Source: Odiellus spinosus (Eukaryota > Arthropoda > Arachnida > Opiliones > Phalangiidae). Taken from it: a stretch of 64,000 bases of DNA. Positions 3,856 through 60,390 of this stretch are shown piece by piece. Position numbers and translations under genes: made by a program. The stretch's first letter is position 1. Each line of letters opens with the position of its first letter. Below the pieces are notes generated by a model. That model had not been told where the DNA came from and searched no databases. It was given only the letters and a program-made list of their open reading frames with translations. Where the stretch lies: NCBI GenBank assembly GCA_963920705.1, contig OY987233.1:4268001-4332000 (forward strand). Direction: 5' to 3'.

Positions 3856-4776
3856 TGTAAAGTGTGTTTGCCACATTTCGGACACGTGTCCGAGATGATG
3901 TCATTTTCAAGGGCGACGATTGGTTAGTGCCCAGTTGGGTAATTTTGAGAACCACGTGCGCCCGTGGTTGATAAGCGCGACTTGGCGCGAAAAATAGAAG
4001 AAGCTCTTGGAGCATCAATAACTTCGGTTGTAAAATTAATGGTGGTGCCCTTCGGGCTCACCGGCCGCGATATGTTTACACGGTGCGTAGTAAGGTCGGA
4101 GCGCGCGAGTAACGAAAAATAATTAAACGTGCATTTCTGAATGCGCGTCGCTACGCGACAAACAATAATTAATTCGGCGTGTATCATGGTGTACCCTCGC
4201 GAAGGACTCTGCAAACCTCATCAACAGTACCGTAACTATATTCGACTTTTGTTTTAAGTTAGTTGAATTGTATTCAACTCTTAGTCAGCCAACGCGCCTT
4301 GAATAACTTTCATAACCGTAATTGCCTTATGAGCATATTTTAATATTTTAATGAATTTAAGCCTAATGAGCTGTTTTTTTGGTTTAGTATCTAAATGCCT
4401 TATGTGCTAGATCTAATAATTTTTGTTAATGTTACCAATATCCTAATGAACACTTTGTCAGTATTTGTTTATGGAAGAACTGTTAGTATCAGTTCCATTT
4501 ATGCATTGTTATAATTAAATATTTTCTTGGCAACCTTCAATCCTCTCTTAGTTTTTAAATTACCCTAATCTTTAATATAAATTCCCCTAGACAACAGTTT
4601 ATTATTATTATTTTTATTTCGCCACCTCCCAATAGTGAAAAGGTAGGCGAGACCCTGACCGTATTATTTTTTTAAACCTTGTAGCGAATATTTTATTTTA
4701 ATCAAACCCTTAGCTTTAATTCGTTTCCTACTTAATTTAATCTTTATTTAAACCTAGCCAAAAATATTTCGTTACA
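3856..4776 (+). mobile_element. 3' LTR of the LTR retrotransposon
   Basis: Bases 3980-4776 match the left LTR throughout, without the Harbinger block. The inferred start at 3856 is TGTAAAG and the end is CGTTACA, giving the expected TG...CA ends with a short TGTAA/TTACA inverted repeat. The length would then be about 920 bp. The start is inferred from these ends, because the matching part of the left LTR lies outside the window. The right flank begins TAGTA, which should be repeated left of the element if it is the target duplication. Confidence 0.7.
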
Positions 4777-20816: not shown

Positions 20817-21175
20817 TGGGCCGCAGAGCCAGCTCAATCGGGCCGCAGAGCCAGCTCAATCGGGCCGCAGAGCCAGCTCAATCGGGCCGCAGAGCCAGCT
20901 CAATCGGGCCGCAGAGCCAGCTCAATCGGGCCGTTGAGTCAGCTCAATCGGGCCGCTGAGTCAGCTCAATCGGGCCGCTGAGTCAGCTCAATCGGGCCGC
21001 TGAGTCAGCTCAATCGGGCCGCTGAGTCAGCTCAATCGGGCCGCTGAGTCAGCTCAATCGGGCCGCTGAGTCAGCTCAATCGGGCCGCTGAGTCAGCTCA
21101 ATCGGGCCGCTGAGTCAGCTCAATCGGGCCGCTGAGTCAGCTCAATCGGGCCGCTGAGTCAGCTCAATCGGGCCG
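20817..21175. repeat. 22-bp minisatellite, about 16 units
   Basis: The unit is GGGCCGCTGAGTCAGCTCAA plus TC. The first five units carry GCAGAGCCAGC and the rest GCTGAGTCAGC, with one hybrid unit (GTTGAGTCAGC) at the border. GC-rich against an AT-rich background. The repeat contains TGAGTCA, an AP-1-like core, in about ten consecutive units. Confidence 0.9.
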
Positions 21176-23270: not shown

Positions 23271-23570
23271 TATATTTTAATGTCATATCTAGTAGCCTTA
23301 ACGGCTCTATTTCTTCAAACTCCTTGGTGTATTATTTATAAAAGGTAAAAGAAAACTAAAATTATATTTTTAGGGAAGATATAAAATGGTTATAAGACTG
23401 ATACATTGCATCATAAAGGATAATGTTATTTGGTATATTTATAAACTCCATGCTATTCTGAATATAGGTCAGAACAATGGCGCGTAACGGATTTAGGTTA
23501 CAACGTAGTCGCGTTCTCATTAGTGACTTTAAAACCGTTTGGAAACGGCCAAGTGAGAAGTGTTCACACC
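23271..23570. other. Gene-less stretch before the satellite block
   Basis: AT-rich; nothing supported. Confidence 0.35.
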
Positions 23571-23896
23571 CCTTGTAAAAAAATCGAAATAACTAATTTA
23601 ATTTTTACAAAAGAAAATCGAAATTATTAATCTAATTTTGCAAGGGGTACCCCTTGTAAAAAAAAAATAAATAAATAAATAAATACACCCCCTGTAAAAT
23701 AAATAATAAAAAATGTTACAAGGGGTACCCCATGTAAAAAAAATCGAAATAACTAATTTAATTTTTACAAGGGGTACCCCTTGTAAAAAAATGAATACCC
23801 CCCTGTAAAATAAGTAATCAAACATTTTAGAAGGGGTACGTACCCCTTGTAAAAAAAAATAAATACACCCCCTGTAAAATAAATAATCAAAAAATT
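23571..23896 (-). repeat. Left outer box region of the mirror block
   Basis: Alternates the palindrome box (clean example ACAAGGGGTACCCCTTGT at 23,767-23,784) with AAATACACCCCCTGTAAAAT units and AATCGAAATAACTAATTTAA spacers. The same spacers, reversed (TTAAATTAGTTATTTCGATT), occur at 38,010-38,480 on the right side. Confidence 0.8.
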
Positions 23897-25018
23897 TACA
23901 AATCTCAAAAATCTCAATTTTCCAAATCTCAAAAATCTCAATTTTCCAAATCTCAAAAATCTCAATTTTCCAAATCTCAAAAATCTGAATTTTCCAAATC
24001 TCAAAAATCTCAATTTTCCAAATCTCAAAAATCTCAATTTTCCAAATCTCAAAAATCTCAATTTTTAAAATCTCAAAATCTCAATTTTCCAAATCTCAAA
24101 AATCTCAATTTTCCAAATCTCAAAAATCTCAATTTTCCAAATCTCAAAAACCTCAATTTTCCAAATCTCAAAAACCTCAATTTTCCAAATCTCAAAAACC
24201 TCAATTTTCCAAATCTCAAAAACCTCAATTTTCCAAATCTCAAAAACCTCCATTTTCCAAATCTCAAAAACCTCCATTTTCCAAATCTCAAAAACCTCAA
24301 TTTTCCAAATCTCAAAAACCTCAATTTTCCAAATCTCAAAAACCTCAATTTTCCAAATCTCAAAAACCTCAATTTTCCAAATCTCAAAAACCTCAATTTT
24401 CCAAATCTCAAAAACCTCAATTTTCCAAATCTCAAAAACCTCAATTTTCCAAATCTCAAAAACCTCAATTTTCCAAATCTCAAAAACCTCAATTTTCCAA
24501 ATCTCAAAAACCTCAATTTTCCAAATCTCAAAAACCTCAATTTTCCAAATCTCAAAAACCTCAATTTTCCAAATCTCAAAAACCTCAATTTTCCAAATCT
24601 CAAAAACCTCAATTTTCCAAATCTCAAAAACCTCAATTTTCCAAATCTCAAAAACCTCAATTTTCCAAATCTCAAAAATCTCTTTTTTCCAAATCTCAAA
24701 AACCTCAATTTTCCAAATCTCAAAAACCTCCATTTTCCAAATCTCAAAAATCTCAATTTTCCAAATCTCAAAAATCTCAATTTTCCAAATCTCAAAAATC
24801 TCAATTTTCCAAATCTCAAAAATCTCAATTTTCCAAATCTCAAAAATCTCAATTTTCCAAATCTCAAAAATCTCAATTTTCCAAATCTCAAAAATCTCCA
24901 TTTTCCAAATCTCAAAAATCTCCATTTTCCAAATCTCAAAAATCTCCATTTTTCCAAATCTCAAAAATCTCCATTTTTCCAAATCTCAAAAATCTCCATT
25001 TTTCCAAATCTCAAAAAT
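23897..25018 (-). repeat. 24-bp array, left arm (about 46 units)
   Basis: The unit is CCAAATCTCAAAAATCTCAA plus TTTT. Variants are grouped: AAATCTC units at the left, a run of about 24 AAACCTC units at 24,140-24,730, AAATCTC again, then CTCCATTTT units at the right. Because 24 is a multiple of three, frames of about 300 codons stay open on the minus strand. These are by-products of the repeat, not genes. Confidence 0.9.
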
Positions 25019-25135
25019 CTCCATTTTCCAAATCTCCATTTTCCAAATCTCCATTTTCCAAATCTCCATTTTCCAAATCTCCATTTTCCAAATCTCCATT
25101 TTCCAAATCTCCAATTTCCAAATCGCCATTTTCCA
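25019..25135 (-). repeat. 15-bp derivative of the 24-bp unit
   Basis: At the inner end the unit shortens to AAATCTCCATTTTCC (15 bp), repeated about eight times. This looks like a deletion derivative of the 24-bp unit that was then amplified. No counterpart was seen at the matching place of the right arm. Confidence 0.8.
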
Positions 25136-28100
25136 AGGGGGTATTTATTATTTTTTTTTAAAGGGGGTGTATTTATTATTTTTTTTTGCAGGGGGTGTAT
25201 TTATTATTTTTTTTTTTGCAGGGGGTGTATTTATTATTTTTTTTTTTTTGCAGGGGGTGTATTTATTATTTTTTTTTTTGCAGGGGGTGTATTTATTATT
25301 TTTTTTTTGCAGGGGGTGTATTTATTATTTTTTTTTTACAGGGGATGTATTTATTATTTTTTTTTTACAGGGGGTATGTTTACTATTTTTTTTACAAGAG
25401 GTACCCCTTGTAAAAAAAATCAATTATTTTTTTACAAGGGTGTATTTATTATTTATTTTTTTACAGGGGGTGTATTTATTATTTATTTTTTTTACAGGGG
25501 GGGTATTTATTATTTTTTTTACAGGGGGTGTATTTATTATTATTTTTTTACAGGGGGTGTATTTATTATTATTTTTTTTACAGGGGGTGTATTTATTATT
25601 ATTTTTTTTACAGGGGGTGTATTTATTATTATTTTTTTACAGGGGGTGTATTATTATTTTTTACAGGGGGTGTATTTATTATTTTTTTTACAGGGGGTGT
25701 ATTTATTATTATTTTTTTTACAGGGGGTGTATTTATTATTTTTTTACAGGGGGTGTATTTATTATTATTTTTTTACAGGGGGTGTATTTATTATTATTTT
25801 TTTACAGGGGGTGTATTTATTATTTTTTTTACAGGGGGTGTATTTATTAAAAATCAATTATTATATTTTTTACAAGGGGTACCTATTGTAAAAAAAATCA
25901 ATTATTATTTTTTACAAGGGGTACCCCTTGAAAAAAAATCAATTGTTTTACAGGGGGTGTATTTATTATTTTTTTTTTTTTGGGGTGTATTTATTATTAT
26001 TTTTTTTTACAGGGGGTGTATTTATTATTTTTTTTTTTCAGGGGGTGTATTTATTATTTATTTTTTTTACATGGGGTGTATTTATTATTTTTTTTTTACA
26101 GGGGGTATATATATATTTTTTTTACAGGGGGTATGTTTATTATTTTTTTTTACAGGTGGTGTATTTATTATTTATTATTTTTTTACGAGGGGTACCCCTT
26201 GTAAAAAAAAAATCAATTACTATTTTTTTTTACAAGAGGTACCCCTTGTAAAAAAAATCAATTATTTTTTATAAGGGTGTATTTATTTATTTTTTTTACA
26301 GGGGGTGTATTTATTATTTATTTTTTTTACAGGGGGTGTATTTATTATTATTTTTTTACAGGGGGTGTATTTATTATTTATTTTTTTACAGGGGGTGTAT
26401 TTATTATTTATTTTTTTACAGGGGGTGTATTTATTATTTTTTTTACAGGTGGTGTATTTATTATTATTTTTTTTTTACAGGGGGTGTATTTATTAAAAAT
26501 AATTATTATTTTTTACAAGGGGTACCCCTTGTAAACAAAATCAATTATTTACAGGGGGTGTATTTATTATTTGTTTTACTGGGGGTGTATTTATTATTTT
26601 TTTTTACAGGGGGTGTATTTATTATTTATTTTTTTACAAGGGGTGTATTTATTATTTATTTTTTTACGAAGGGTACCCTTGTAAAAAAAATCAATTATTT
26701 TTTTACAAGGGGTACCCTTGTAAAAAAAATCAATTTTTTTTTTACAAAAGGTATCCCTTGTAAAAAAAATCAATTATTTTTTTACAAAAGGTATCCCTTG
26801 TAAAAAAAAAATCAATTATTATTTTTTTACAAGAGGTATCCCTTGTAAAAAAAATCAATTATTATTTTTTACAAAGCTTACCCCTTGTAAAAAAAATCAA
26901 TTATTATTTTTTTACAATTGGTGTATTTATTATTCATTTTTTTTTACAGAGGGTGTATTTATTATTTTTTTTTTTACAGGGGGTGTATTTATTATTCATT
27001 TTTTTACAGAGGGTGTATTTATTATTTATTTTTTTACAGGGGGTGTATTTATTATTATTTTTTTTTTTAGTAGGGTACCCCTTGTAAAAAAAATCAATTA
27101 TTATTTTTTTACAAGTGGTACCCCTTGTAAAAAAAATCAATTATTTTAAGTGGATGTATTTATTATTTTTTTTACATTGGGTGTATTTATTATTTTTTTT
27201 ACAGGGGATGTATTTATTATTTTTTTTTTTTTTTTTTTACAAGGGGTGTATTTATTGTTTTTTTTTACAGGGGGTGTATATATTTATTTTTTTACAGGGG
27301 GTGTATTTTTTATTTATTTTTTTTACAGGGGGTGTATTTATTTATTTTTTTACAGGGGGTGTATTTATTATTTATTTTTTTACAGGGGGTGTATTTATTA
27401 TTTATTTTTTTACAGGGGGTGTATTTATTATTTATTTTTTTACAGGGGGTGTATTATTTATTTTTTTACAGGGGGTGTATTATTTATTTTTTTTACAGGG
27501 GGTGTATTATTTATTTTTTTACAGGGGGTGTATTATTTATTTTTTTACAGGGGGTGTATTATTTATTTTTTTTACAGGGGGTGTATTTATTATTTATTTT
27601 TTTTACAGGGGGTGTATTTGTTTATTTTTTTTTTACAGGGGGTGTATTTATTATTTATTTTTTTCTGGGGGTGTATTTATAATTTTTTTACAGGGGGTGT
27701 ATTTATTATTTTTTTTACAGGGGATGTATTTATTATTTTTTTTTTTTTTTTACAAGGGGTGTATTTATTGTTTTTTTTTTTACAGGGGGTGTATATATTT
27801 ATTTTTTTACAGGGGGTGTATTTTTTATTTATTTTTTTTACAGGGGGTGTATTTATTTATTTTTTTACAGGGGGTGTATTTATTATTTATTTTTTTACAG
27901 GGGGTGTATTATTTATTTTTTTACAGGGGGTGTATTATTTATTTTTTTTACAGGGGGTGTATTATTTATTTTTTTACAGGTGGTGTATTATTTATTTTTT
28001 TACAGGGGGTGTATTATTTTTTTTTTTACAGGGGGTGTATTTATTATTTATTTTTTTTACAGGGGGTGTATTTATTTATTTTTTTTTACAGGGGGTGTAT

Positions 28101-28876
28101 TTATTATTTATTTTTTTCTGGGGGTGTATTTATAATTTTTTTACAGGGGGTGTATTTATAATTTTTTTACAGGGGGTGTATTTATTATTTACTTTTTTTA
28201 CAGGGGGTGTATATATTTATTTTTTTTTAACAGGGGTGTATTTATTAATTATTTTTATACAGGGAGTGTATTTATTATTTATTTTTTTCACAGGGGTGTA
28301 TTATTTTTTTTTTTACAGGGGGTGTATTTAGTATTAATATTTTTTACAGGGGGTGTATTTATTATTATTTTTTTTTTACAGGGGTGTATTTATTATTTAT
28401 TTTTTTACAGGTTGTATTTATTATTTTTTTTACAGGGGGTGTATTTATTATTTTTTTACAGGGGGTGTATTTATTTATTTATTTTTTTTACAGAGTGTAT
28501 TTATTTTTTTTACAGGGGGTATATTTATTATTTTTTTTTTTACAGGGGGTGTATTTATTATTTATTTTTTTTAACAGGGGGTGTATTTATTATATATTTT
28601 TTTACAGGGGGTGTATTTATTATTAATTTTTTTTACAGGGGGTGCATTTATTAAAAATCAATCATTATTTTTTTACAAAAAAATCAATTATTTTTTTACA
28701 ATAGGTACCTCTTGTAAAAAAAATCAATTATTTTTTTACAAAAAAATCAATTATTTTTTTACAATAGGTACCTCTTGTAAAAAAAATCAATTATTTTTTT
28801 GTAAAAAAAAACAATTATTATTTTTTACAAGGGGTACCCCTTGTAAAAAAAAACAATTATTTACAGTGGGTGTATT

Positions 28877-28915
<39 letters not shown>

Positions 28916-31900
28916 GGGGGGTGTATTTATTATTTATTTGTTCTACAGGGGGTGTATTTATTATTTATTTTTTTTACAGGGGGTGTATTTATTATTTATT
29001 TTTTTACAGGGGGTGTATTTACTATTTATTTTTTTACAGGGGGTGTATTTATTTTTTTTACAGGGGGTGTATTTACTATTTTATTTTTACAGGGGGTGTA
29101 TTTATTATTCATTATTTTTACAGGGGTGTATTTATTATTTTTTTTACAGGGGGTGTATTTATTAATTTTTTTACAGGGAGTGTATTTATTATTTATTTTT
29201 TTACAGGGGGTGTATTATAATTATTATTTTTTTTTACAGAGGGTGTATATTTATTAAAAATCAATTATTAACTTTTTACAAGGGGTACCCCTTGTAAAAA
29301 AAATCAATTATTATTTTTTTACAAGGGGTACCCCATGTAAAAAAATTAAAAATTAATTCAGGGGTTGAATTTATTATTTTTTTTTTTTTTCAGGGGGTGT
29401 ATTATTTTTTTTTTTTTTACAGGGTGTGTATTTATTATTTATTTTTTTACAGGGGGTGTATTTATTAATTTTTTTACAGGGGGTGTATTTATTAATTATT
29501 TTTTTACAGGGGGTGTATTTATTAATTATTTTTTTACAGGGGGTGTATTTATTATTTATTTTTTTACAGGGGGTGTATTTATTATTTATTTTTTTACAGG
29601 GGGTGTATTTATTTTTTTTACAGGGGGTGTATTTACTATTTTATTTTTACAGGGGGTGTATTTATTATTCATTATTTTTACAGGGGTGTATTTATTATTT
29701 TTTTTACAGGGGGTGTATTTATTAATTTTTTTACAGGGAGTGTATTTATTATTTATTTTTTTACAGGGGGTGTATTATAATTATTATTTTTTTTTACAGA
29801 GGGTGTATATTTATTAAAAATCAATTATTAACTTTTTACAAGGGGTACCCCTTGTAAAAAAAATCAATTATTATTTTTTTACAAGGGGTACCCCATGTAA
29901 AAAAATTAAAAATTAATTCAGGGGTTGAATTTATTATTTTTTTTTTTTTTCAGGGGGTGTATTATTTTTTTTTTTTTTACAGGGTGTGTATTTATTATTT
30001 ATTTTTTTACAGGGGGTGTATTTATTAATTTTTTTACAGGGGGTGTATTTATTAATTATTTTTTTACAGGGGGTGTATTTATTAATTATTTTTTTACAGG
30101 GGGTGTATTTATTATTTATTTTTTTACAGGGGGTGTATTTATTATTTATTTTTTTACAGGGGGTGTATTTATTATTTATTTTTTTACAGGGGGTGTATTT
30201 ATTATTTATTTTTTTTACAGAGGGTGTATTTATTAAAAATCAATTATTATTTTTTTACAAGGTGTACCCGTTGTAAAAAAAATCAATTATTATTTTTTAC
30301 AAGGGGTACCCCTTGTAAAAAAAAATAATTATTTACAGGGGGGTGTATTTATTATTTTTTTTACAGGGGGTGTATTTACTATTTTATTATTACAGGGGGT
30401 GTATTTATTATTTATTTTTTTTACAGGGGTGTATTTATTATTTTTTTTTACAGGGGGTGTATTTATTATTTATTTTTTTACAGGGGGTGTATTATAATTA
30501 TTAATTTTTTTACAGGGGGTGTATTTATTAAAAATCAATTACTAACTTTTTTTATTTATTAATATTTATTGTAAAAAAAATGAAAATTATTTCAGGGGTT
30601 GAATTTATAATTTTTTTACAGGGGGTGTATTATTATTTTTTTTTTTTACAGGGGGTGTATTTATTATTTATTTTTTTACAGGGGGGGGGGGGTATTTATT
30701 ATTATTTTTTTACAGGGGGGGTATTTATTATTATTTTTTTTACAGGGGGTGTATTTATTATTTATTTTTTTACAGGGGGTGTATTTATTATTTATTTTTT
30801 TACAGGGGGGGGGTATTTATTATTATTTTTTTTACAGGGGGTGTATTTATTATTATTTTTTTACAGGGGGTGTATTATTATTTTTTACAGGGGGTGTATT
30901 TATTATTTTTTTTACAGGGGGTGTATTTATTATTATTTTTTTTACAGGGGGTGTATATATTATTTTTTTCCAGGGGTGTATTTATTATTATTTTTTTACA
31001 GGGGGTGTATTTATTATTTTTTTACAGGGGGTGTATTTATTATTATTTTTTTTACAGGGGGTGTATTTATTAAAAATCGATTATTATATTTTTTACAAGG
31101 GGTACCTATTGTAAAAAAAATCAATTATTATTTTTTACAAGGGGTACCTATTGTAAAAAAAATCAATTATTATTTTTTACAAGGGGTACCCCTTGAAAAA
31201 AATCAATTGTTTTACAGGGGGTGTATTTATTATTTTTTTTTACAGGGGGTGTATTTATTATTATTTTTTTTTTTACAGGGGGTGTATTTATTATTTTTTT
31301 TTTCAGGGGGTGTATTTATTATTTATTTTTTTTACATGGGGTGTATTTATTATTTTTTTTTTACAGGGGGTATATATATATATTTTTTTTACAGAGGGTA
31401 TGTTTATTATTTTTTTTTTACAGGGGGTGTATTTATTATTTATTATTTTTTTTACAGAGGGTATGTTTATTATTTTTTTTTTACAGGGGGTGTATTTATT
31501 ATTTATTATTTTTTTACGAGGGGTACCACTTGTAAAAAAAAATCAATTACTATTTTTTTTTACAAGAGGTACCCCTTGTAAAAAAAATCAATTATTTTTT
31601 ACAAGGGTGTATTTATTTATTTTTTTTACAGGGGGTGTATTTATTATTTATTTTTTTTACAGGGGGTGTATTTATTATAATTTTTTTTACAGGGTGTGTA
31701 TTTATTATTATTTTTTTTACAGGGGGTGTATTTATTATTATTTTTTTACAGGGGGTGTATTTATTATTTATTTTTTTACAGGGGGTGTATTTATTATTAA
31801 TTTTTTTTACAGGGGCTGTATTTATTATTATTTTTTTACAGGGGGTGTATTTATTATTATTTTTTTTACAGGGGGTGTATTTATTAAAAATCAATTATTA

Positions 31901-32066
31901 TATTTTTTACAAGGGGTACCTATTGTAAAAAAAAATCAATTATTATTTTTTTTACAGGGGGTGTATTTATTATTATTTTTTTTACAGGGGGTGTATTTAT
32001 TATTATTTTTTTACAGGGGGTGTATGTATTATTTATTTTTTTACAGGGGGTGTATTTATTATTATA
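25136..32066 (+). repeat. 30-bp-type satellite, left arm (plus orientation)
   Basis: Units follow ACAGGGGGTGTATTTATTAT and a T-rich tail, 26-32 bp long, broken at intervals by clusters of palindrome boxes with AAAAATCAATTATTATTTTT spacers. Segments are duplicated at a higher level: about 560 bp (the AATTAATTCAGGGGTTGAAT mark at 29,351 and 29,911), 516 bp (ACAGGGGATG at 27,201 and 27,717) and a larger pair with an offset near 5.2 kb (CCTATTGTAAAA near 25,880 and 31,100). The long open frames here, rich in F, I, L, Y and G, come from the repeat and are not genes. Confidence 0.9.
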
Positions 32067-32069
32067 AAT

Positions 32070-32195
32070 GCGTGTTGTCATTTTTCGTCTCAGGGTGGAT
32101 ATTGATAATTGAAATCCGCAACCGGGAATGACAGGTAGAGTCAAGGAGTTCCAAATAATTTGGAATTTCTTGACTATAATAAAAAACCATTGATA
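32070..32195 (+). mobile_element. First copy of the 126-bp SINE body
   Basis: Starts GCGTGTTGTCATTTTTCGTC and ends AAAAAACCATTGATA. It appears identical, at the same 126-bp length, to 32,365-32,490. It has no tRNA head of its own and begins right where the plus-oriented satellite stops. Confidence 0.8.
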
Positions 32196-32294
32196 CTCCA
32201 ATGCCATCCGTCAATTACGGAGGGATCACCGATTACTCTTAATCAAAGTCAGGAGCTGTATAGCTTCGATTGTGGGCTACTGTGAGGTTGTATA
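32196..32294. other. Unique spacer between SINE parts
   Basis: About 100 bp (CTCCAATGCCATCCGTCAAT to GTGAGGTTGTATA) seen only here. It may be the true 3' end of the first SINE copy or a host fragment carried along. Confidence 0.4.
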
Positions 32295-32366
32295 GCCTCG
32301 GTAGCTCAGTTGGTTGGAGCATGGGACGGTTACCCAGAGGTCGGTGGTTCGAATCCACCCTGAGGC
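32295..32366 (+). tRNA. tRNA-like SINE head (probably not a working tRNA)
   Basis: 72 nt fold as a cloverleaf: acceptor GCCTCGG pairs with CTGAGGC (one G-T), D stem GCTC with GAGC, and T arm GGTGG-TTCGAAT-CCACC pairs perfectly. Pol III boxes are intact (A box TAGCTCAGTTGG, B box GGTTCGAATCC). The anticodon arm is poor: only TGGG/CCCA pairs and the loop ACGGTTA lacks the usual T at position 33, so no anticodon can be assigned safely. The sequence runs straight into the repeated 126-bp body. A tRNA-derived SINE head is the best reading. Confidence 0.6.
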
Positions 32367-32490
32367 GTGTTGTCATTTTTCGTCTCAGGGTGGATATTGA
32401 TAATTGAAATCCGCAACCGGGAATGACAGGTAGAGTCAAGGAGTTCCAAATAATTTGGAATTTCTTGACTATAATAAAAAACCATTGATA
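32295..32490 (+). mobile_element. tRNA-derived SINE at the centre of the mirror block
   Basis: The tRNA-like head (32,295-32,366) is followed without a gap by a 126-bp body (32,365-32,490) ending AAAAAACCATTGATA. The body is also present alone at 32,070-32,195. The satellite left of 32,066 is on the plus orientation and right of 32,491 on the minus orientation, so the SINE pair sits exactly on the switch. Reverse-strand peptides such as GGFEPPTSG come from reading the tRNA head backwards and are not a gene. Confidence 0.75.
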
Positions 32491-35400
32491 ATAAATACAC
32501 CCCCTGTAAAAAAAATAAATAATAAATACACCCCCTGTAAAAAGATAATAAATACCCCCCTGTAAAAAAATAATAAATACACAACCTGTAAAAAAATAAA
32601 TAATAAATACACCCCCTGTAAAAAAATAAATAATAAGTACACCCCCTGTAAAAAATATTAATAATAAATACACCCCCTGAAAAATTAAATAATAAATACA
32701 ACCCCCTGTATAAAAAAATTATAAATACACCCCCTGTAAAAAAAAATAAATAATATATACACCCCCTGTAAAAAAAATAATAAGTACACCCCCTGTAAAA
32801 AAATAAAAAATACACCCCCTGTAAAAAAAATAATAAATGCACCCCCTGTAAAAAAATAAATAATAAATACACCCCCTGTAAAAAAAATAATTAATACACC
32901 CCCTGTAAAAAAAAATAAATAATAATTACACTCCCTGTATAAAAAATAATTAATAAATACACCCCCTGTAAAAAAATAAATAATAAATACACCCCCTGTA
33001 AATAAATAAATAATAAATACACCCCCTGTTAAAAAAATAATAAATACACCCCCTGTAAAAAATTAATAAATACACCCCCTGTAAAAAAATAAATAATAAA
33101 TACACCCCCTGTAAAAAAAAATTAATAAATACACCCCCTGTAAAAAAAAAATAATAAATACACCCCCTGTAAAAAAAAAAATAATAAATACACCCCCTGT
33201 AAAATAAATAAATAATAAATACACCCCCTGTAAAAAAAAATAAATAATAAATACACCCCCTGTAAAAAAATTAAATAATAAATACACCCCCTGTAAAAAA
33301 AAAATAGTAAATACACCCCCTGTAAAAAAATAATAAATGCTCCCCTGTAAATAATTGATTTTTTTTTATAGGAGGTACCCCTTGTAAAAAATAATAATAT
33401 ATTTTTTTATAGGAGGTACCCCTTGTAAAAAATAATAATAGATTTTTTTTACAAGGGGTAACTCTTGTAAAAAAATAATAATTGATTTTTTTACAAGGGG
33501 TACCTCTTGTAAAAAAATAATATATGATTTTTTTTACAAGGGGTACCTCTTGTAAAAAAATAACAATTGTTTTTTTTTACAAGGGGTACCCCTTGTAAAA
33601 AATAATAATTGATTTTTTTACAAGGGGTACACCTTGTAAAAAAATAATTGATTTTTAATAAATACACCCCCTGTAAAAAATAATAATAAATACACCCCTG
33701 TAAAAAAAAAAATAAATACACCCCCTGTAAAAAAAAATAATAAATACACCCCCTGTAAAAAAAAATAAATAATAAATACACCCCCTGTAAAAAAAATAAA
33801 TACACCCTCTGTAGAAAAATAAATAATAAATACACCCCCTGTAAAAAAATAAATAAATACACCCACTGTTAAAAAATAAATAATAAATACACCCCCTGTA
33901 AAAAAAATAATTACACCCCCTGTAAAAAAATAAATAATAAGTACACCCCCTGTAAAAAATATTAATAATAAATACACCCCCTGAAAAATTAAATAATAAA
34001 TACAACCCCCTGTATAAAAAAATTATAAATACACCCCCTGTAAAAAAAATAAATAATAAATACACCCCCTGTAAAAAAAATAATAAGTACACCCCCTGTA
34101 AAAAAATAACAAATACACCCCCTGTAAAAAAAATAATAAATGCACCCCCTGTAAAAAAATAAATAATAAAACCCCCTGTAAAAAAAATAATTAATACACC
34201 CCCTGTAAAAAAAATAAATAATAATTACACTCCCTGTATAAAAAATAATTAATAAATACACCCCCTGTAAAAAAATAAATAATAAATACACCCCCTGTAA
34301 ATAAATAAATAATAAATACACCCCCTGTAAAAAAATAATAAATACACCCCCTGTAAAAAAATAATAAATACACCCCCTGTAAAAAAATAAATAATAAATA
34401 CACCCTTGAAAAAAAATTAATAAATACACCCCCTGTAAAAAAAAAATAATAAATACACCCCCTGTAAAAAAAAAAATAATAAATACACCCCCTGTAAAAT
34501 AAATAAATAATAAATACACCCCCTGTAAAAAAAATAAATAATAAATACACCCCCTGTAAAAAAATTAAATAATAAATACACCCCCTGTAAAAAAAAAATA
34601 GTAAATACACCCCCTGTAAAAAAATAATAAATGCTCCCCTGTAAATAATTGATTTTTTTTATAGGAGGTACCCCTTGTAAAAAATAATAATATATTTTTT
34701 TATAGGAGGTACCCCTTGTAAAAAATAATAATAGATTTATTTTACAAGGGGTAACTCTTGTAAAAAAATAATAATTGATTTTTTTACAAGGGGTACCTCT
34801 TGTAAAAAAATAATATATGATTTTTTTTACAAGGGGTACCTCTTGTAAAAAAATAACAATTGTTTTTTTTTACAAGGGGTACCCCTTGTAAAAAATAATA
34901 ATTGATTTTTTTACAAGGGGTACACCTTGTAAAAAAATAATAATTGATTTTTAATAAATACACCCCCTGTAAAAAATAATAATAAATACACCCCTGTAAA
35001 AAAAAAAAATAAATACACCCCCTGTAAAAAAAATAATAAATACACCCCCTGTAAAAAAAAAAATAATAAATACACCCCCTGTAAAATAAATAAATAATAA
35101 ATACACCCCCTGTAAAAAAAATAAATAATAAATACACCCCCTGTAAAAAAATTAAATAATAAATACACCCCCTGTAAAAAAAAAATAGTAAATACACCCC
35201 CTGTAAAAAAATAATAAATGCTCCCCTGTAAATAATTGATTTTTTTTATAGGAGGTACCCCTTGTAAAAAATAATAATATATTTTTTTATAGGAGGTACC
35301 CCTTGTAAAAAATAATAATAGATTTTTTTTACAAGGGGTAACTCTTGTAAAAAAATAATAATTGATTTTTTTACAAGGGGTACCTCTTGTAAAAAAATAA

Positions 35401-37105
35401 TATATGATTTTTTTTACAAGGGGTACCTCTTGTAAAAAAATAACAATTGTTTTTTTTTACAAGGGGTACCCCTTGTAAAAAATAATAATTGATTTTTTTA
35501 CAAGGGGTACACCTTGTAAAAAAATAATAATTGATTTTTAATAAATACACCCCCTGTAAAAAATAATAATAAATACACCCCTGTAAAAAAAAAAAAATAA
35601 ATACACCCCCTGTAAAAAAAAATAATAAATACACCCCCTGTAAAAAAAAATAAATAATAAATACACCCCCTGTAAAAAAAATAAATACACCCTCTGTAGA
35701 AAAATAAATAATAAATACACCCCCTGTAAAAAAATAAATGATAAATACACCCCCTGTAAAAAAATAAATGATAAATACACCCCCTTTAAGAAAATAAATG
35801 ATAAATACACCCCCTGTAAAAAAATAAATGATAAATACACCCCCTGTAAAAAAATAAATGATAAATACACCCCCTGTAAAAAAATAAATGATAAATACAC
35901 CCCCTGTAAAAAAATAAATGATAAATACACCCCCTGTAAAAAAATAAATGATAAATACACCCCCTGTAAAAAAATAAATAATAAATACACCCCCTGTAAA
36001 AAAATAAATAATAAATACACCCCCTGTAAAAAAATAAATAATAAATACACCCCCTGTAAAAAAATAAATAATAAATACACCCCCTGTAAAAAAATAAATA
36101 ATAAATACACCCCCTGTAAAAAAATAAATAATAAATACACCCCCTGTAAAAAAATAAATAATAAATACACCCCCTGTAAAAAAATAAATAATAAATACAC
36201 CCCCTGTAAAAAAATAAATAATAAATACACCCCCTGTAAAAAAATAAATAATAAATACACCCCCTGTAAAAAAATAAATAATAAATACACCCCCTGTAAA
36301 AAAATAAATAATAAATACACCCCCTGTAAAAAAATAAATAATAAATACACCCCCTGTAAAAAAATAAATAATAAATACACCCCCTGTAAAAAAATAAATA
36401 ATAAATACACCCCTTGTAAAAAAATAAATAATAAATACACCCCTTGTAAAAAAATAAATAATAAATACACCCCCTGTAAAAAAATAAATAATAAATACAC
36501 CCCCTGTAAAAAAATAAATAATAAATACACCCCCTGTAAAAAAATAAATAATAAATACACCCCCTGTAAAAAAATAATAAATACACCCCCTGTAAAAAAA
36601 TAAATAATAAATACACCCCCTGTAAAAAAATAAATAATAAATACACCCCCTGTAAAAAAATAAATAATAAATACACCCCCTGTAAAAAAATAAATAATAA
36701 ATACACCCCCTGTAAAAAAATAAATAATAAATACACCCCCTGTAAAAAAATAAATAATAAATACACCCCCTGTAAAAAAATAAATAATAAATACACCCCC
36801 TGTAAAAAAATAAATAATAAATACACCCCCTGTAAAAAAATAAATAAATACACCCCCTGTAAAAAAATAAATAAATACACCCCCTGTAAAAAAATAAATA
36901 AATACACCCCCTGTAAAAAAATAAATAATAAATACACCCCCTGTAAAAAAATAAATAATAAATACACCCCCTGTAAAAAAAAATAATAAATACACCCCCT
37001 GTAAAAAATAAATAATAAATACACCACCTGTAAAAAAATAAATAATAAATACACCCCCTGTAAAAAAATAAATAATAAACACACCCCCTTTAAAAAAATA
37101 AATAA
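32491..37105 (-). repeat. 30-bp-type satellite, right arm (minus orientation)
   Basis: The unit, read on plus, is AAATACACCCCCTGTAAAAA plus AAATAAATAAT. From 32.5 to 35.6 kb it is irregular and holds three copies of a ~320-bp palindrome-box cluster (mark ATGCTCCCCTGTAAATAATT near 33,337, 34,631 and 35,218), offset 1,294 and 587 bp. From about 35,700 to 37,080 it is nearly perfect at 30 bp for about 46 units. Since 30 is a multiple of three, frames of 430 and 800 codons stay open on the minus strand; they are artefacts. Confidence 0.9.
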
Positions 37106-37910
37106 TAATTTGGAAAATTGAGATTTTTGAGATTTGGAAAATTGAGATTTTTGAGATTTGGAAAATTGAGATTTTTGAGATTTGGAAAATTGAGATTTTT
37201 GAGATTTGGAAAATTGAGATTTTTGAGATTTGGAAAATTGAGATTTTTGAGATTTGGAAAATTGAGATTTTTGAGATTTGGAAAATTGAGATTTTTGAGA
37301 TTTGGAAAATTGAGATTTTTGAGATTTGGAAAATTGAGATTTTTGAGATTTGGAAAATTGAGATTTTTGAGATTAGGAAAATTGAGATTTTTGAGATTAG
37401 GAAAATTGAGATTTTTGAGATTAGGAAAATTGAGATTTTTGAGATTAGGAAAATTGAGATTTTTGAGATTAGGAAAATTGAGATTTTTGAGATTAGGAAA
37501 ATTGAGATTTTTGAGATTAGGAAAATTGAGATTTTTGAGATTAGGAAAATTGAGATTTTTGAGATTAGGAAAATTGAGATTTTTGAGATTTGGAAAATTG
37601 AGATTTTTGAGATTTGGAAAATTGAGATTTTTGAGATTTGGAAAATTGAGATTTTTGAGATTTGGAAAATTGAGATTTTTGAGATTTGGAAAATTGAGAT
37701 TTTTGAGATTTGGAAAATTGAGATTTTTGAGATTTGGAAAATTGAGATTTTTGAGATTTGGAAAATTGAGATTTTTGAGATTTGGAAAATTGAGATTTTT
37801 GAGATTTGGAAAATTGAGATTTTTGAGATTTGGAAAATATAGATTTTTGAGATTTGGAAAATTGAGATTTTTGAGATTTGGAAAATTGAGATTTTTGAGA
37901 TTTGGAAAAA
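37106..37910 (+). repeat. 24-bp array, right arm (about 33 units)
   Basis: The unit TTTGGAAAATTGAGATTTTT plus GAGA is the reverse complement of the left-arm unit. A block of nine units with GATTAGG instead of GATTTGG lies at about 37,370-37,570. The AAACCTC block of the left arm has no match here, so the two arrays expanded separately. Confidence 0.9.
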
Positions 37911-38750
37911 TAATACACCCCTTGTAAAATAAATAAACAAAAATTTTACAATGGGTACCCCTTGTAAAATTTCTTTTACAGGGAGTGTCTTTATTTTTTT
38001 TTTTACCAGGGGTACCCGTTGTAAAAATTAAATTAATTATTTAGATTTTCTTTTACAAAGGGTACCCCTTGTAAAAATTATATTAGTTATTTCGATTATT
38101 TATTTTACAGGGGGTGTATTTATTTATTTTTTACAAGGGGTACCCCTTGTAAAATTTTTGATTTCTTATTTTACAGGGGTGTATTTGTTTTTTACATAGG
38201 GTACCCCTTGTAAAAATTAAATTAGTTATTCCAATGTTTTTTTACAAGGGGTACCCCTTGTGAAATTAAATTAGTTATTTCGATTTTCTTTTACAAAGGG
38301 TACCCCTTGTTAAAATTAAATTTAATTATTTCGATTTTTTTACAAGGGGTACCACTTGTAAAAATTAAATTGGTTATTTCGATTTTTTTTTTACAAGTGG
38401 TACCCCTTGTAAAAATTAAATTAGTTATTTCGATTTTCTTTTACAAGGGGTACCCCTTTTAAAAATTAAATTAGTTATTTCGATTATTTATTTTACAGGG
38501 GGTGTATATATTTTTTTTACAAGGGGTACCCCTAGTAAAATTTTGGATTATTTATTTTACATGAGGTGTACCCCATGTATAAAAATCTAAATATCTAATT
38601 TAATTTTTACAAGGGGTACCCATTGTAAAAAATACACCCCCTGTAAAATAATACACCCCCTGTAAAATAATAATATTTTCGATTTGTTTTACAAGGGATT
38701 TCCCTTGTAAAAAATTCAATTTATTTTTCGATTTTTGTAAAGGGTACCCC

Positions 38751-38760
<10 letters not shown>
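37911..38760 (+). repeat. Right outer box region of the mirror block
   Basis: Palindrome boxes (GGGTACCC cores) alternate with AAAATTAAATTAGTTATTTC spacers and a few ACAGGGGGTGTATTTATTTA units. It is the reverse complement in layout of 23,571-23,896 but longer. Confidence 0.8.
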
Positions 38761-38781
<21 letters not shown>

Positions 38782-39535
38782 TAGACCCCTCAAAAAAAAT
38801 TAGACCCCTCAAAAAAATAAGACCCCCTCAAAAAAATAAGACCCCTCAAAAAAATAAGACCCCTCAAAAAAATAAGACCCCTCAAAAAAATAAGACCCCT
38901 CAAAAAAATAAGACCCCTCAAAAAAATAAGATCCCTCAAAAAAATAAGACCCCTCAAAAAAATAAGACCCCTCAAAAAAATAAGACCCCTCAAAAAAATA
39001 AGACCCCTCAAAAAAATAAGACCCCTCAAAAAAATAAGACCCCTCAAAAAAATAAGACCCCTCAAAAAAATAAGACCCCTCAAAAAAATAAGACCCCTCA
39101 AAAAAATAAGACCCCTCAAAAAAATAAGACCCCTCAAAAAAATAAGACCCCTCAAAAAAATAAGACCCCTCAAAAAAATAAGACCCCTCAAAAAAAATAA
39201 GACCCCTCAAAAAAAATAAGACCCCTCAAAAAAATAAGACCCCTCAAAAAAAATAAGACCCCTCAAAAAAATAAGACCCCTCAAAAAAATAAGACCCCTC
39301 AAAAAAATAAGACCCCTCAAAAAAATAAGACCCCTCAAAAAAATAAGACCCCTCAAAAAAATAAGACCCCTCAAAAAAATAAGACCCCTCAAAAAAATAA
39401 GACGCCTCAAAAAAATAGACCCCCTCAAAAAAATGGACCCCTCAAAAAAATAGACCCCTCAAAAAAATAGACCCCTCAAAAAAATAGACCCCTCAAAAAA
39501 ATAGACCCCCCCTGAAAACATAGATCTGAAAAAAT
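38761..39535. repeat. 18-bp array, about 40 units
   Basis: The unit is ACCCCTCAAAAAAATAAG (18 bp), starting after a run of about 27 A and decaying to ATAGACCCCTCAAAAA near 39,420. It lies outside the mirror and has no partner on the left. Frames of about 130 codons on the minus strand are repeat by-products. Confidence 0.9.
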
Positions 39536-40114: not shown

Positions 40115-40690
40115 ACTAAAGTCTATCACTTTATTCCATAAAAGTAAACAATGCCCCGTAGCTTAAAACTATCAGCAAAGGTCCGGGTAAATGTACCGAC
40201 AGATTCTGATTCGAGACACTCTAGCGGCCGCAGTCGCCGTGTAAATAGTGAACGGAGGAAGCTCAACTCTGCGGAGAAATTCCGGAGTTTGGAGGGAAGA
40301 CAATATAGCCCGCCTAAATTCCGTCCCTCTTTCCCGACCAAAAATATCGAGGAAGAGTCCAAATTACACGCGCCAGACAGGGGTGATGACTTTTTGTCTA
40401 TATTTAAGTGATGGGCTATGACGTAAAACTGAACCTTTGCTGATAGTATTAAGCTCAACTCTGCGGAGAAATTCCGGAGTTTGGAGGGAAGACAATATAG
40501 CCCGCCTAAATTCCGTCCCTCTTTCCCGACCAAAAATATCGAGGAAGAGTCCAAATTACACGCGCCAGACAGGGGTGATGACTTTTTGTCTATATTTAAG
40601 TGATGGGCTATGACGTAAAACTGAACCTTTGCTGATAGTATTAAGCTATGGGGCGTTGCTTACTTTTATGGAATAAAGTGATAGTTTTTT
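40115..40690 (+). mobile_element. MITE family E, copy 5, with an internal 192-bp tandem duplication
   Basis: Both terminal repeats are present. Inside, GCTCAACTCTGCGGAGAAAT recurs at 40,261 and 40,453, and the 192 bp between are repeated almost exactly, so the element is about 575 bp instead of 390. The duplication joins the right terminal repeat (AGTATTAAGC) to the interior, probably through short shared AAGCTC. Confidence 0.85.
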
Positions 40691-57646: not shown

Positions 57647-58312
57647 CCCCTAAATATCGCGCCCATATTAAGAGTATTTTGAATAATTTTAAATGAAAAC
57701 CATTTGTTAATCTAAATTAAGGTTCGAATACGCGAAAATTAACTTTGTTCATTAGAACACATTAGTCGCTCTCATTATTTTGGAAACAATATAGGGGCTT
57801 TAGTAGCGTCTAGTATTTCGTGGAATTATTAGTTAATCAAATGAGGTTAAGCGTTAAACATAGTAATACTAGCTGTATAAGTATTAATACAAGATACCCA
57901 AAGTAAATTAGCAACATTTATACGAGGGAATTTCCAGTCTTAGTGAATTAAACGTCATTTTCCAATGGCTGTAGCCCTATTTTAAGCACCACCATGGGAA
58001 TTTTACGTCGTTATGTTATTTAATATCGTGATAGATGCTCGATTTACACTTGGATTTTACAGCGCCAACTAAGTTAAGCTACAAGTTATATCTGTTGTTT
58101 CATTAATTATAGATAAAGGGTAAACAACTTCGTATGTGCTAGCAAATCAATATGAAATAAATGATTTGTATAAAGTATACAACTGATGAAGATCTTCGCC
58201 CAATTGATTAGATAAGTCTAATTGCTTCGAAAAATGATCTAGACGACCTTCAAAATAATACAGTCTTGGACGATGTTAGGAGCAGAAACTAATAATAGAC
58301 AAGATAAGATTT
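57647..58312. other. Gene-less stretch
   Basis: Nothing supported. Confidence 0.35.
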
Positions 58313-60390
58313 TCCAACCGCTTTTTGACCTATTTTCCAACCGCTTTTTGACCTATTTTCCAACCGCTTTTTGACCTATTTTCCAACCGCTTTTTGACCT
58401 ATTTTCCAACCGCTTTTTGACCTATTTTCCAACCGCTTTTTGACCTATTTTCCAACCGCTTTTTGACCTATTTTCCAACCGCTTTTTGACCTATTTTCCA
58501 ACCGCTTTTTGACCTATTTTCCAACCGCTTTTTGACCTATTTTCCAACCGCTTTTTGACCTATTTTCCAACCGCTTTTTGACCTATTTTCCAACCGCTTT
58601 TTGACCTATTTTCCAACCGCTTTTTGACCTATTTTCCAACCGCTTTTTGACCTATTTTCCAACCGCTTTTTGACCTATTTTCCAACCGCTTTTTGACCTA
58701 TTTTCCAACCGCTTTTTGACCTATTTTCCAACCGCTTTTTGACCTATTTTCCAACCGCTTTTTGACCTATTTTCCAACCGCTTTTAGACCTATTTTCCAA
58801 CCGCTTTTAGACCTATTTTCCAACCGCTTTTAGACCTATTTTCCAACCGCTTTTAGACCTATTTTCCAACCGCTTTTTGACCTATTTTCCAACCTCTTTT
58901 TGACCTATTTTCCAACCTCTTTTTGACCTATTTTCCAACCTCTTTTTGACCTATTTTCCAACCTCTTTTTGAGCTATTTTCCAACCTCTTTTTGAGCTAT
59001 TTTCCAACCTCTTTTTGAGCTATTTTCCAACCTCTTTTTGAGTTATTTTCCAACCTCTTTTTGAGCTATTTTCCAACCTCTTTTTGAGCTATTTTCCAAC
59101 CTCTTTTTGAGCTATTTTCCAACCTCTTTTTGAGCTATTTTCCAACCTCTTTTTGAGCTATTTTCCAGCCTCTTTTTGAGCTATTTTCCAGCCTCTTTTT
59201 GAGCTATTTTCCAACCTCTTTTTGAGCTATTTTCCAACCTCTTTTTGAGCTATTTTCCAACCTCTTTTTGAGCTATTTTCCAACCTCTTTTTGAGCTATT
59301 TTCCAACCTCTTTTTGAGCTATTTTCCAACCTCTTTTTGAGCTATTTTCCAACCTCTTTTTGAGCTATTTTCCAACCTCTTTTTGAGCTATTTTCCAACC
59401 TCTTTTTGAGCTATTTTCCAACCTCTTTTTGAGCTATTTTCCAACCTCTTTTTGAGCTATTTTCCAACCTCTTTTTGAGCTATTTTCCAACCGCTTTTTG
59501 AGCTATTTTCCAACCGCTTTTTGAGCTATTTTCCAACCGCTTTTTGAGCTATTTTCCAACCGCTTTTTGACCTATTTTCCAACCGCTTTTTGACCTATTT
59601 TCCAACCGCTTTTTGACCTATTTTCCAACCGCTTTTTGAGCTATTTTCCAACCGCTTTTTGAGCTATTTTCCAACCGCTTTTTGAGCTATTTTCCAACCG
59701 CTTTTTGAGCTATTTTCCAACCGCTTTTTGAGCTATTTTCCAACCGCTTTTTGTGCTATTTTCCAACCTCTTTTTGTGCTATTTTCCAACCTCTTTTTGA
59801 GCTATTTTCCAACCTCTTTTTGAGCTATTTTCCAACCTCTTTTTGAGCTATTTTCCAACCTCTTTTTGAGCTATTTTCCAACCTCTTTTTGAGCTATTTT
59901 CCAACCTCTTTTTGAGCTATTTTCCAACCTCTTTTTGAGCTATTTTCCAACCTCTTTTTGAGCTATTTTCCAACCTCTTTTTGAGCTATTTTCCAACCTC
60001 TTTTTGAGCTATTTTCCAACCGCTTTTTGAGCTATTTTCCAACCGCTTTTTGAGCTATTTTCCAACCGCTTTTTGAGCTATTTTCCAACCGCTTTTTGAG
60101 CTATTTTCCAACCGCTTTTTGAGCTATTTTCCAACCGCTTTTTGAGCTATTTTCCAACCGCTTTTTGAGCTATTTTCCAACCGCTTTTTGACCTATTTTC
60201 CAACCGCTTTTTGAGCTATTTTCCAACCGCTTTTTGAGCTATTTTCCAACCGCTTTTTGAGCTATTTTCCAACCGCTTTTTGAGCTATTTTCCAACCGCT
60301 TTTTGAGCTATTTTCCAACCGCTTTTTGTGCTATTTTCCAACCGCTTTTTGTGCTATTTTCCAACCGCTTTTTGAGCTATTTTCCAACCG
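58313..60390. repeat. 23-bp minisatellite, about 90 units
   Basis: The unit is TTTTCCAACCGCTTTTTGAC plus CTA, strictly 23 bp, with almost no length change over 2 kb. Two sites vary in blocks: CCGC or CCTC, and GACC, GAGC or GTGC. The order is CCGC-GACC, a four-unit TTTTAGACC block, CCTC-GACC, CCTC-GAGC, CCGC-GAGC, CCGC-GACC, CCGC-GAGC, two GTGC units, CCTC-GAGC, then CCGC-GAGC with one GACC unit and two GTGC units. The recurring blocks point to amplification of groups of units. There are no unique spacers, so this is not a CRISPR array. Confidence 0.95.

Follow-up and report, generated by a model that had tools for sequence, protein, structure and literature searches.

A layered mirror-image satellite block, one among many two-armed loci of mostly shared strand polarity in one genome

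The stretch of DNA analysed here (the window) comprises 64 000 nucleotides (contig C11:4268001-4332000) of a genome of 443 Mb in 286 contigs. It contains a block of short tandem arrays whose length is far beyond chance. The block opens on the left with an outer box region (23569-23895; no strand assigned), which begins at the half-box CA-CCCCTTGTAAAA (the hyphen marking the edge) and consists of palindromic boxes, ACAAGGGGTACCCCTTGT, together with two units resembling the 30-bp repeat on the minus strand. This is followed on the plus strand by a 24-bp array of the TTTCCAAATCTCAAAAACCTCAAT type (23895-25036; 47.5 copies; TRF and strand counts), by a 15-bp variant, AAATCTCCATTTTCC, lying between the 24-bp and 30-bp layers (25015-25136; TRF and reading), and by a 30-bp array of the TTTTTTTACAGGGGGTGTATTTATTATTTA type with internal box clusters (25129-32063; TRF and strand counts). 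The mirror axis is placed at a 4-bp loop, TATT (32060-32063; no strand). Next to it, a tRNA-like insertion of 421 bp, equal to 1.4 copies of a 296-bp unit (32070-32490; plus strand), is enclosed by a target duplication, ATAAAT (left copy 32064-32069, plus strand; right copy 32491-32496). The right arm lies on the minus strand and consists of a 30-bp array (32488-37108; TRF, reading and strand counts) containing three related box clusters (33350-33648, 34644-34952 and 35231-35539), a 24-bp array (37108-37909; 33.4 copies; TRF and strand counts) and an outer box region (37910-38755; no strand assigned) with three 30-like units on the plus strand and three on the minus strand. Beyond the right box region lies an 18-bp array, AAAAAAATAAGACCCCTC (38775-39509; plus strand; TRF), with no partner on the left.

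Strand counts with one mismatch allowed gave 46 copies of the 24-bp core on the plus strand of the window and 33 on the minus strand, with a single switch between 25006 and 37120. The 30-bp core (159 plus, 118 minus) switches strand at the centre (32043 to 32494) and at three further points within the box regions or at their edges. The box is a palindrome, ACAAGGGG-TA-CCCCTTGT, and thus has no strand of its own; 30-like motifs lying among the boxes are on the minus strand in both left instances and on either strand on the right (3 plus, 3 minus). A previous sequence-only reading of the window had proposed that every layer is mirrored around 32.07-32.49 kb, in the order box, 24-bp array and 30-bp array from each side. 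The strands of the 24- and 30-bp arrays agree with this and the boxes do not clearly do so, being palindromic with mixed 30-like units on the right; the three layers were placed by TRF and reading in the order proposed, to which the unpaired 18-bp array on the right is an exception. For four blocks in mirrored order with random strands, the observed strand pattern or its complement is expected in two of 16 cases, so that the mirror in the window alone is weak evidence and the case is carried by the genome-wide polarity described below.

Several other repeats were observed in the window. A 22-bp array, GGGCCGCTGAGTCAGCTCAATC (20818-21175), has 16 copies at 98%, and every copy contains a GCTGAGTCAGC palindrome resembling a binding site of the Maf/AP-1 type. 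The 23-bp array ATTTTCCAACCGCTTTTTGAGCT (58309-60390), with 90 copies at 99%, is probably a young expansion. An interspersed repeat (AATGCCCCGTAGCTTAAAACTATCAGCAAAGG ...) is found at 40126-40660. Related copies lie at about 50, 52, 57 and 61-63 kb, inverted matches occur at other points of the window, and an exact 192-bp tandem duplication is present in one copy. Two pairs of 300-bp segments (1-300 and 3980-4279; 950-1249 and 4281-4580) are 100% identical and may belong to a recent insertion or duplication. A Pfam search with four of the 63 listed reading frames of the window gave 0 matches.

The tRNA part of the central element (32295-32367) was called tRNA-Thr(ggt) by ARAGORN and scored 45.8 bits against the Rfam tRNA model. 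The 6-bp duplication ATAAAT on both sides identifies the element as a later insertion beside the axis. On removal of the insertion in silico the axis persists as perfect hairpin arms of 24 bp around a 4-bp loop. The SINE that had been taken as the centrepiece is thus an element inserted beside the axis, and it was ruled out as the cause of the strand switch in the window. When the two arrays were joined at random 400 times, 13 joins gave a hairpin matching the quality of the window axis, and for this reason the axis hairpin is regarded as modest evidence only.

The 296-bp element has at least 91 matches in the genome. It shares a tRNA-related part with tRNA-derived SINEs, but the single unit with one 3' end expected of a SINE was not found: many of the fetched loci are runs of the 296-bp unit flipping head to head, with two outward ends. 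Such runs (L009, L012, L014-L021 and L024) reach about 14 copies and flip at variable points; many outward ends adjoin the motif ATTGATA, and target duplications are visible at L016, L021 and L024. The runs look less like a plain SINE than like products of reverse transcription primed on either side of the target and templated by a circular or multimeric RNA. Runs of 24- or 30-bp motifs were absent from 20 fetched stretches around copies of the element, which also speaks against the element as the cause of the strand switch.

The two arms were compared in length, in variants and unit by unit. They are unequal in length (30-bp arrays, 25129-32063 versus 32488-37108; 24-bp arrays, 47.5 versus 33.4 copies), and the private variants named in the sequence-only reading were recovered, with 24 copies of AAACCTC in the left 24-bp array (24148-24724) and 0 on either strand of the right one, and nine copies of GATTAGG in the right 24-bp array (37371-37563) and 0 in the left one. 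Higher-order repeats are also private to each arm, with the three box clusters described above in the right arm and, in the left, TRF units that are identical between 29256-29345 and 29816-29905. The junctions between the 24- and 30-bp layers (24>30 junctions) of the two arms differ in sequence. The best alignments between the arms are about 82-90% identical; the corresponding values are about 94-96% within the right arm and, for the left arm, about 94% (24-bp layer) and about 82-86% (30-bp layer). A unit comparison of neighbours gave 0.667 for the left arm, 0.768 for the right arm and 0.666 between the arms, so that homogenization separate from the other arm is visible in the right arm only. 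Pairing of units outward from the axis was no better than pairing in other registers, either in the window or at L037, L039 and L041, and a weak excess was seen at L038, with 9% of registers matching as well as lag 0. The mirror is therefore true of layers and strand, not of single units. A recent fold-back copy of a whole arm was ruled out for the window, the units not being collinear and the internal identity of the right arm being higher than that between the arms. The expectation that a transcript across the block would form a long hairpin is consistent with RNA folding, in which two pairs of arm pieces of 300-360 nt gave long predicted duplexes (-376 and -403 kcal/mol).

Misassembly is an unlikely source of the block. 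The block was judged from the assembly, and such arrays are difficult to assemble, so that chimeric or folded-back reads joined at repeats have to be considered; we regard this as highly improbable. The arms differ in length, in variants and in higher-order repeats, axes of differing sequence are present on at least 12 contigs, and the insertion adjoining the axis carries its own target duplication. The earlier view that the block is not one folded-back read is upheld by the same differences between the arms, by their unit order and by comparable junctions on many contigs.

The genome was searched for the 24-bp pattern with up to three mismatches, which gave 7116 matches (4002 forward, 3114 reverse) and 0 for the control. 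Arrays of short units in tandem are thus present at many loci, as in a satellite, and the block, which had been taken as a singular object, belongs to a genome-wide set of mirrored satellite loci. Both strands were found in five of the first seven 24-bp neighbourhoods (C1:24.98/24.99, C1:27.63/27.66, C2:0.21, C2:3.89 and C2:9.44 Mb), with the plus strand on the left and the minus strand on the right in all five within the DNA read. The arms at C1:27.63/27.66 Mb were read as separate stretches 21 kb apart, and the minus arm at C1:24.99 Mb was reached through the search for 30-bp junctions described below. At C1:30.90 and C1:34.06 Mb the plus arm alone lies within the DNA read. The window block is a genuine layered mirror-image satellite, one among many.

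The layers vary among the loci (numbers give the unit length and signs the strand; a solidus marks the change of strand). The order is 30+ 24+ / 30- box 24- 17-bp at L031, 24+ 30+ 24+ 30+ 24+ (with a short 30+ run within) / 30- 18-bp 24- at L036, 30+ 24+ 17-bp form of 30+ / 30- 24- at L037 and 23+ 30+ / 30- 23- at L041. An outer box ahead of the 24-bp array, like that of the left arm of the window, is also present at L034 and L035, where the box unit of 64-65 bp consists of TA and a unit with 12-bp inverted ends. At L039 (around C1:29542425) the arms that meet at the axis are made of different 30-bp subtypes, with 32-bp units of the CGATCGGTCG type broken by CCCCT runs on the left and 33-bp units of the AAATACGAAACG type at 99% on the right.

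Some observations were made in passing. At C7:5432700-5480021 (about 47 kb) an identical 24>30 junction recurs on the minus strand every 1-4 kb, forming a long higher-order array. Contig C286 contains a full-length COX1 match with an in-frame TGA, and several further matches resembling COX1, likewise with in-frame TGA, lie on contig C17, as transfer of mitochondrial DNA to the nucleus would lead one to expect. A search with one box pattern gave 0 exact matches in viral_contigs and one with a 30-bp dimer pattern gave 0 matches in genome_contigs. Literature searches made without the species name yielded no paper that we recognized as treating this repeat.

Polarity was examined at tight strand switches. 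Plus-to-minus junctions of the 30-bp repeat number 54 in the genome (control 0); 50 of these were listed and, when merged within 60 kb, correspond to 42 loci on 12 contigs. The reverse order, minus to plus, was found 16 times; nine of these junctions are of the box type, as judged from reading of the spacers, and one of the seven non-box junctions, at L041, is a hairpin of two units within an arm. Two-sided binomial tests gave 5.9e-6 for 54:16 and 4.3e-10 for 54:7, values that are approximate because the places were taken as independent, which neighbours are not, and the fixed length and gap of the two search patterns are not quite equal. Tight switches in the 24-bp layer were found at one locus in the plus-to-minus order and at none in the reverse order, and a search of the 23-bp layer in the plus-to-minus order gave 0; tight axes thus lie almost always within the 30-bp layer. 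The 24>30 junctions number 118, 100 of which were listed; overlapping duplicates and the inner members of runs on one strand were left out by hand, which reduced the list to 62 rows, forming 31 clusters; for pairing of clusters with axes, 49 of the 50 listed axes were used, one overlapping axis being omitted. Among these listed junctions, ten of the 11 cluster-axis pairs within 30 kb have the plus strand on the left and the minus strand on the right, the sole exception being at C5:11.73 Mb, and neighbouring 24>30 clusters within 100 kb run from plus to minus in 4/4 cases. For 21 of the 31 clusters, with all 50 listed axes entered, the list gives no tight axis within 30 kb, so that mirroring is shown for part of the arrays only. 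The axes of these clusters may exceed 40 bp in width, may be filled by an insertion, as is the window axis, or may not exist.

These counts bear on simpler explanations of the mirror. Random inversion within arrays would yield both orders of junction equally and is rejected as the main cause. An origin of the polarity in base composition is unsupported, since by reading the layers of opposite composition obey the same arm rule. Two independent satellite arrays might also adjoin in opposite orientation by chance and look mirrored through frequent adjacency of the two families, an explanation with which the lack of collinearity between the arms, their differing junctions and the different subtypes of the L039 arms agree. 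We consider chance adjacency improbable, because it predicts equal polarities, against the 54 versus seven non-box tight junctions and the ten of 11 cluster-axis pairs observed.

Evidence on the origin of the second arm comes from L038 (C1:24.99 Mb). An identical 61-bp junction from the 30-bp to the 24-bp layer is present in both arms of this locus, at +717 and -2495, and a 24>30 junction is also common to both. The 61-bp junction was found exactly in no other locus examined and in near-identical form at L029, which lies in the same neighbourhood. A private junction held by both arms indicates a local inverted duplication at L038. In the window, a common origin of the arms is not shown by sequence, because the 24>30 junctions differ and the units are not collinear; these differing junctions, together with the differing subtypes of L039, indicate that arms can diverge through turnover or through exchange between loci.

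We tentatively favour, at a little short of an even chance, a set of dispersed loci of two-armed foldback shape in which the second arm arose by inverted duplication at a short hairpin-like axis, was followed by separate turnover of the arms and, in the window, by a later tRNA-like insertion. Each locus would follow a plan with 24- and 30-bp repeats on the plus strand in the left arm, the same kinds on the minus strand in the right arm and a hairpin-like axis nearly always within the 30-bp repeat. The second arm would most likely have been copied from the first by inverted duplication about the axis, for which we infer fold-back or template-switch replication as the source, the window included. 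Each arm would then grow, shrink and change separately by slippage and unequal exchange, which could account for arms of unequal length with variants and higher-order repeats of their own, and a tRNA-like retroelement would later have inserted beside the axis of the window copy. A more specific proposal, possible but doubtful, is that the layered arrays are locked in polarity, having been recurrently inverted and duplicated at independent axes that lie nearly always in a single 30-bp repeat and share a strand direction; this repeat would then be a hotspot for directional fold-back replication.

The main competitor of inverted duplication, which we judge rather unlikely, is that the block is a foldback-type (FB) DNA transposon or a decayed derivative of one, with long composite terminal inverted repeats (TIRs) of box, 24-bp and 30-bp domains moved by a transposase and inner repeats swollen into satellite. 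TIRs of FB type have several domains, tandem repeats and ends of unequal length, according to the portions consulted of PMC3169594, PMC3573991 and PMC4079207, and the block has both the long multi-domain inverted repeats with internal tandem repeats and the unequal repeat number between arms. The order box, 24-bp, 30-bp from the outside is common to the window, L034 and L035 (the last with further layers between the 24- and 30-bp repeats), and the left edges of all three, as judged by eye, start at the same box base, (T/C)A-CCCCTTG. The arm rule, which by reading extends to layers of opposite base composition, is in line with this, as is L040, where a small block of boxes alone, with two units in one direction and about 15 in the other, lies in non-satellite DNA. 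Against this, inspection by eye revealed no target duplication at the edges of the window block or at L040, and the end points of L040 differ from the shared box edge. The box units of the window have polarity on the left (2/2) and none on the right (3 and 3), the exact box>24 junction of the window type occurs at just three places with up to two mismatches, the axes vary among loci, and one locus (L038) carries a local inverted duplication. One of two reading frames tested at L040 gave a weak RRM match, below the cut-off.

Inversions, hairpin breakage and silencing by small RNAs are commonly attributed to large inverted satellites. The origin of their paired arms is rarely observable, and a genome with dozens of axes and strong polarity opens it to study. 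It is the strength of the polarity, with an axis almost confined to one repeat, that we find of most interest. With dozens of axes, a polarity and a shared private junction at hand, transposon ends and fold-back replication are distinguishable largely by sequence comparison.

In architecture the block resembles a foldback arm pair and may be said to work like one on a larger scale. FB elements, including Tm1 of root-knot nematodes, are described in the part of PMC3169594 that was seen as transposons with composite multi-domain TIRs holding tandem repeats, the TIR ends of Tm1 being unequal. Inverted arms of several domains, short tandem repeats and unequal repeat number are shared with the present loci, whereas here the arms are about 6-8.5 kb, consist of three or more unrelated repeat layers and have no 8-10-bp target duplication evident by eye. 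In Tetris of Drosophila virilis (PMC4079207, in extract) the internal tandem repeats of a foldback element swell into satellite arrays. Foldback architecture, expansion of internal repeats into satellite and a variable middle are common to both systems; the comparison is one of architecture, Tetris having in the extract repeats of about 220 bp, 8-10-bp target duplications and TIRs that reach 1,735 bp, and the present loci 24- and 30-bp repeats. Galileo likewise has long, internally repetitive TIRs with independent expansion of each arm, and some copies combine arms from two subfamilies, to which L039 may be compared (PMC3573991, sections seen). Galileo carries a P-type transposase, and the present loci are likened to it in arm structure. 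Satellites derived from MITEs and Helitrons are reviewed in PMC12628747, of which a part was available; short units with inverted ends in tandem are a feature that the MITE-derived satellites share with the 64-65-bp box unit of L034 and L035. In that part MITE satellites are described as tandem arrays, whereas mirrored, layered arrays of a single polarity are the feature of the present loci.
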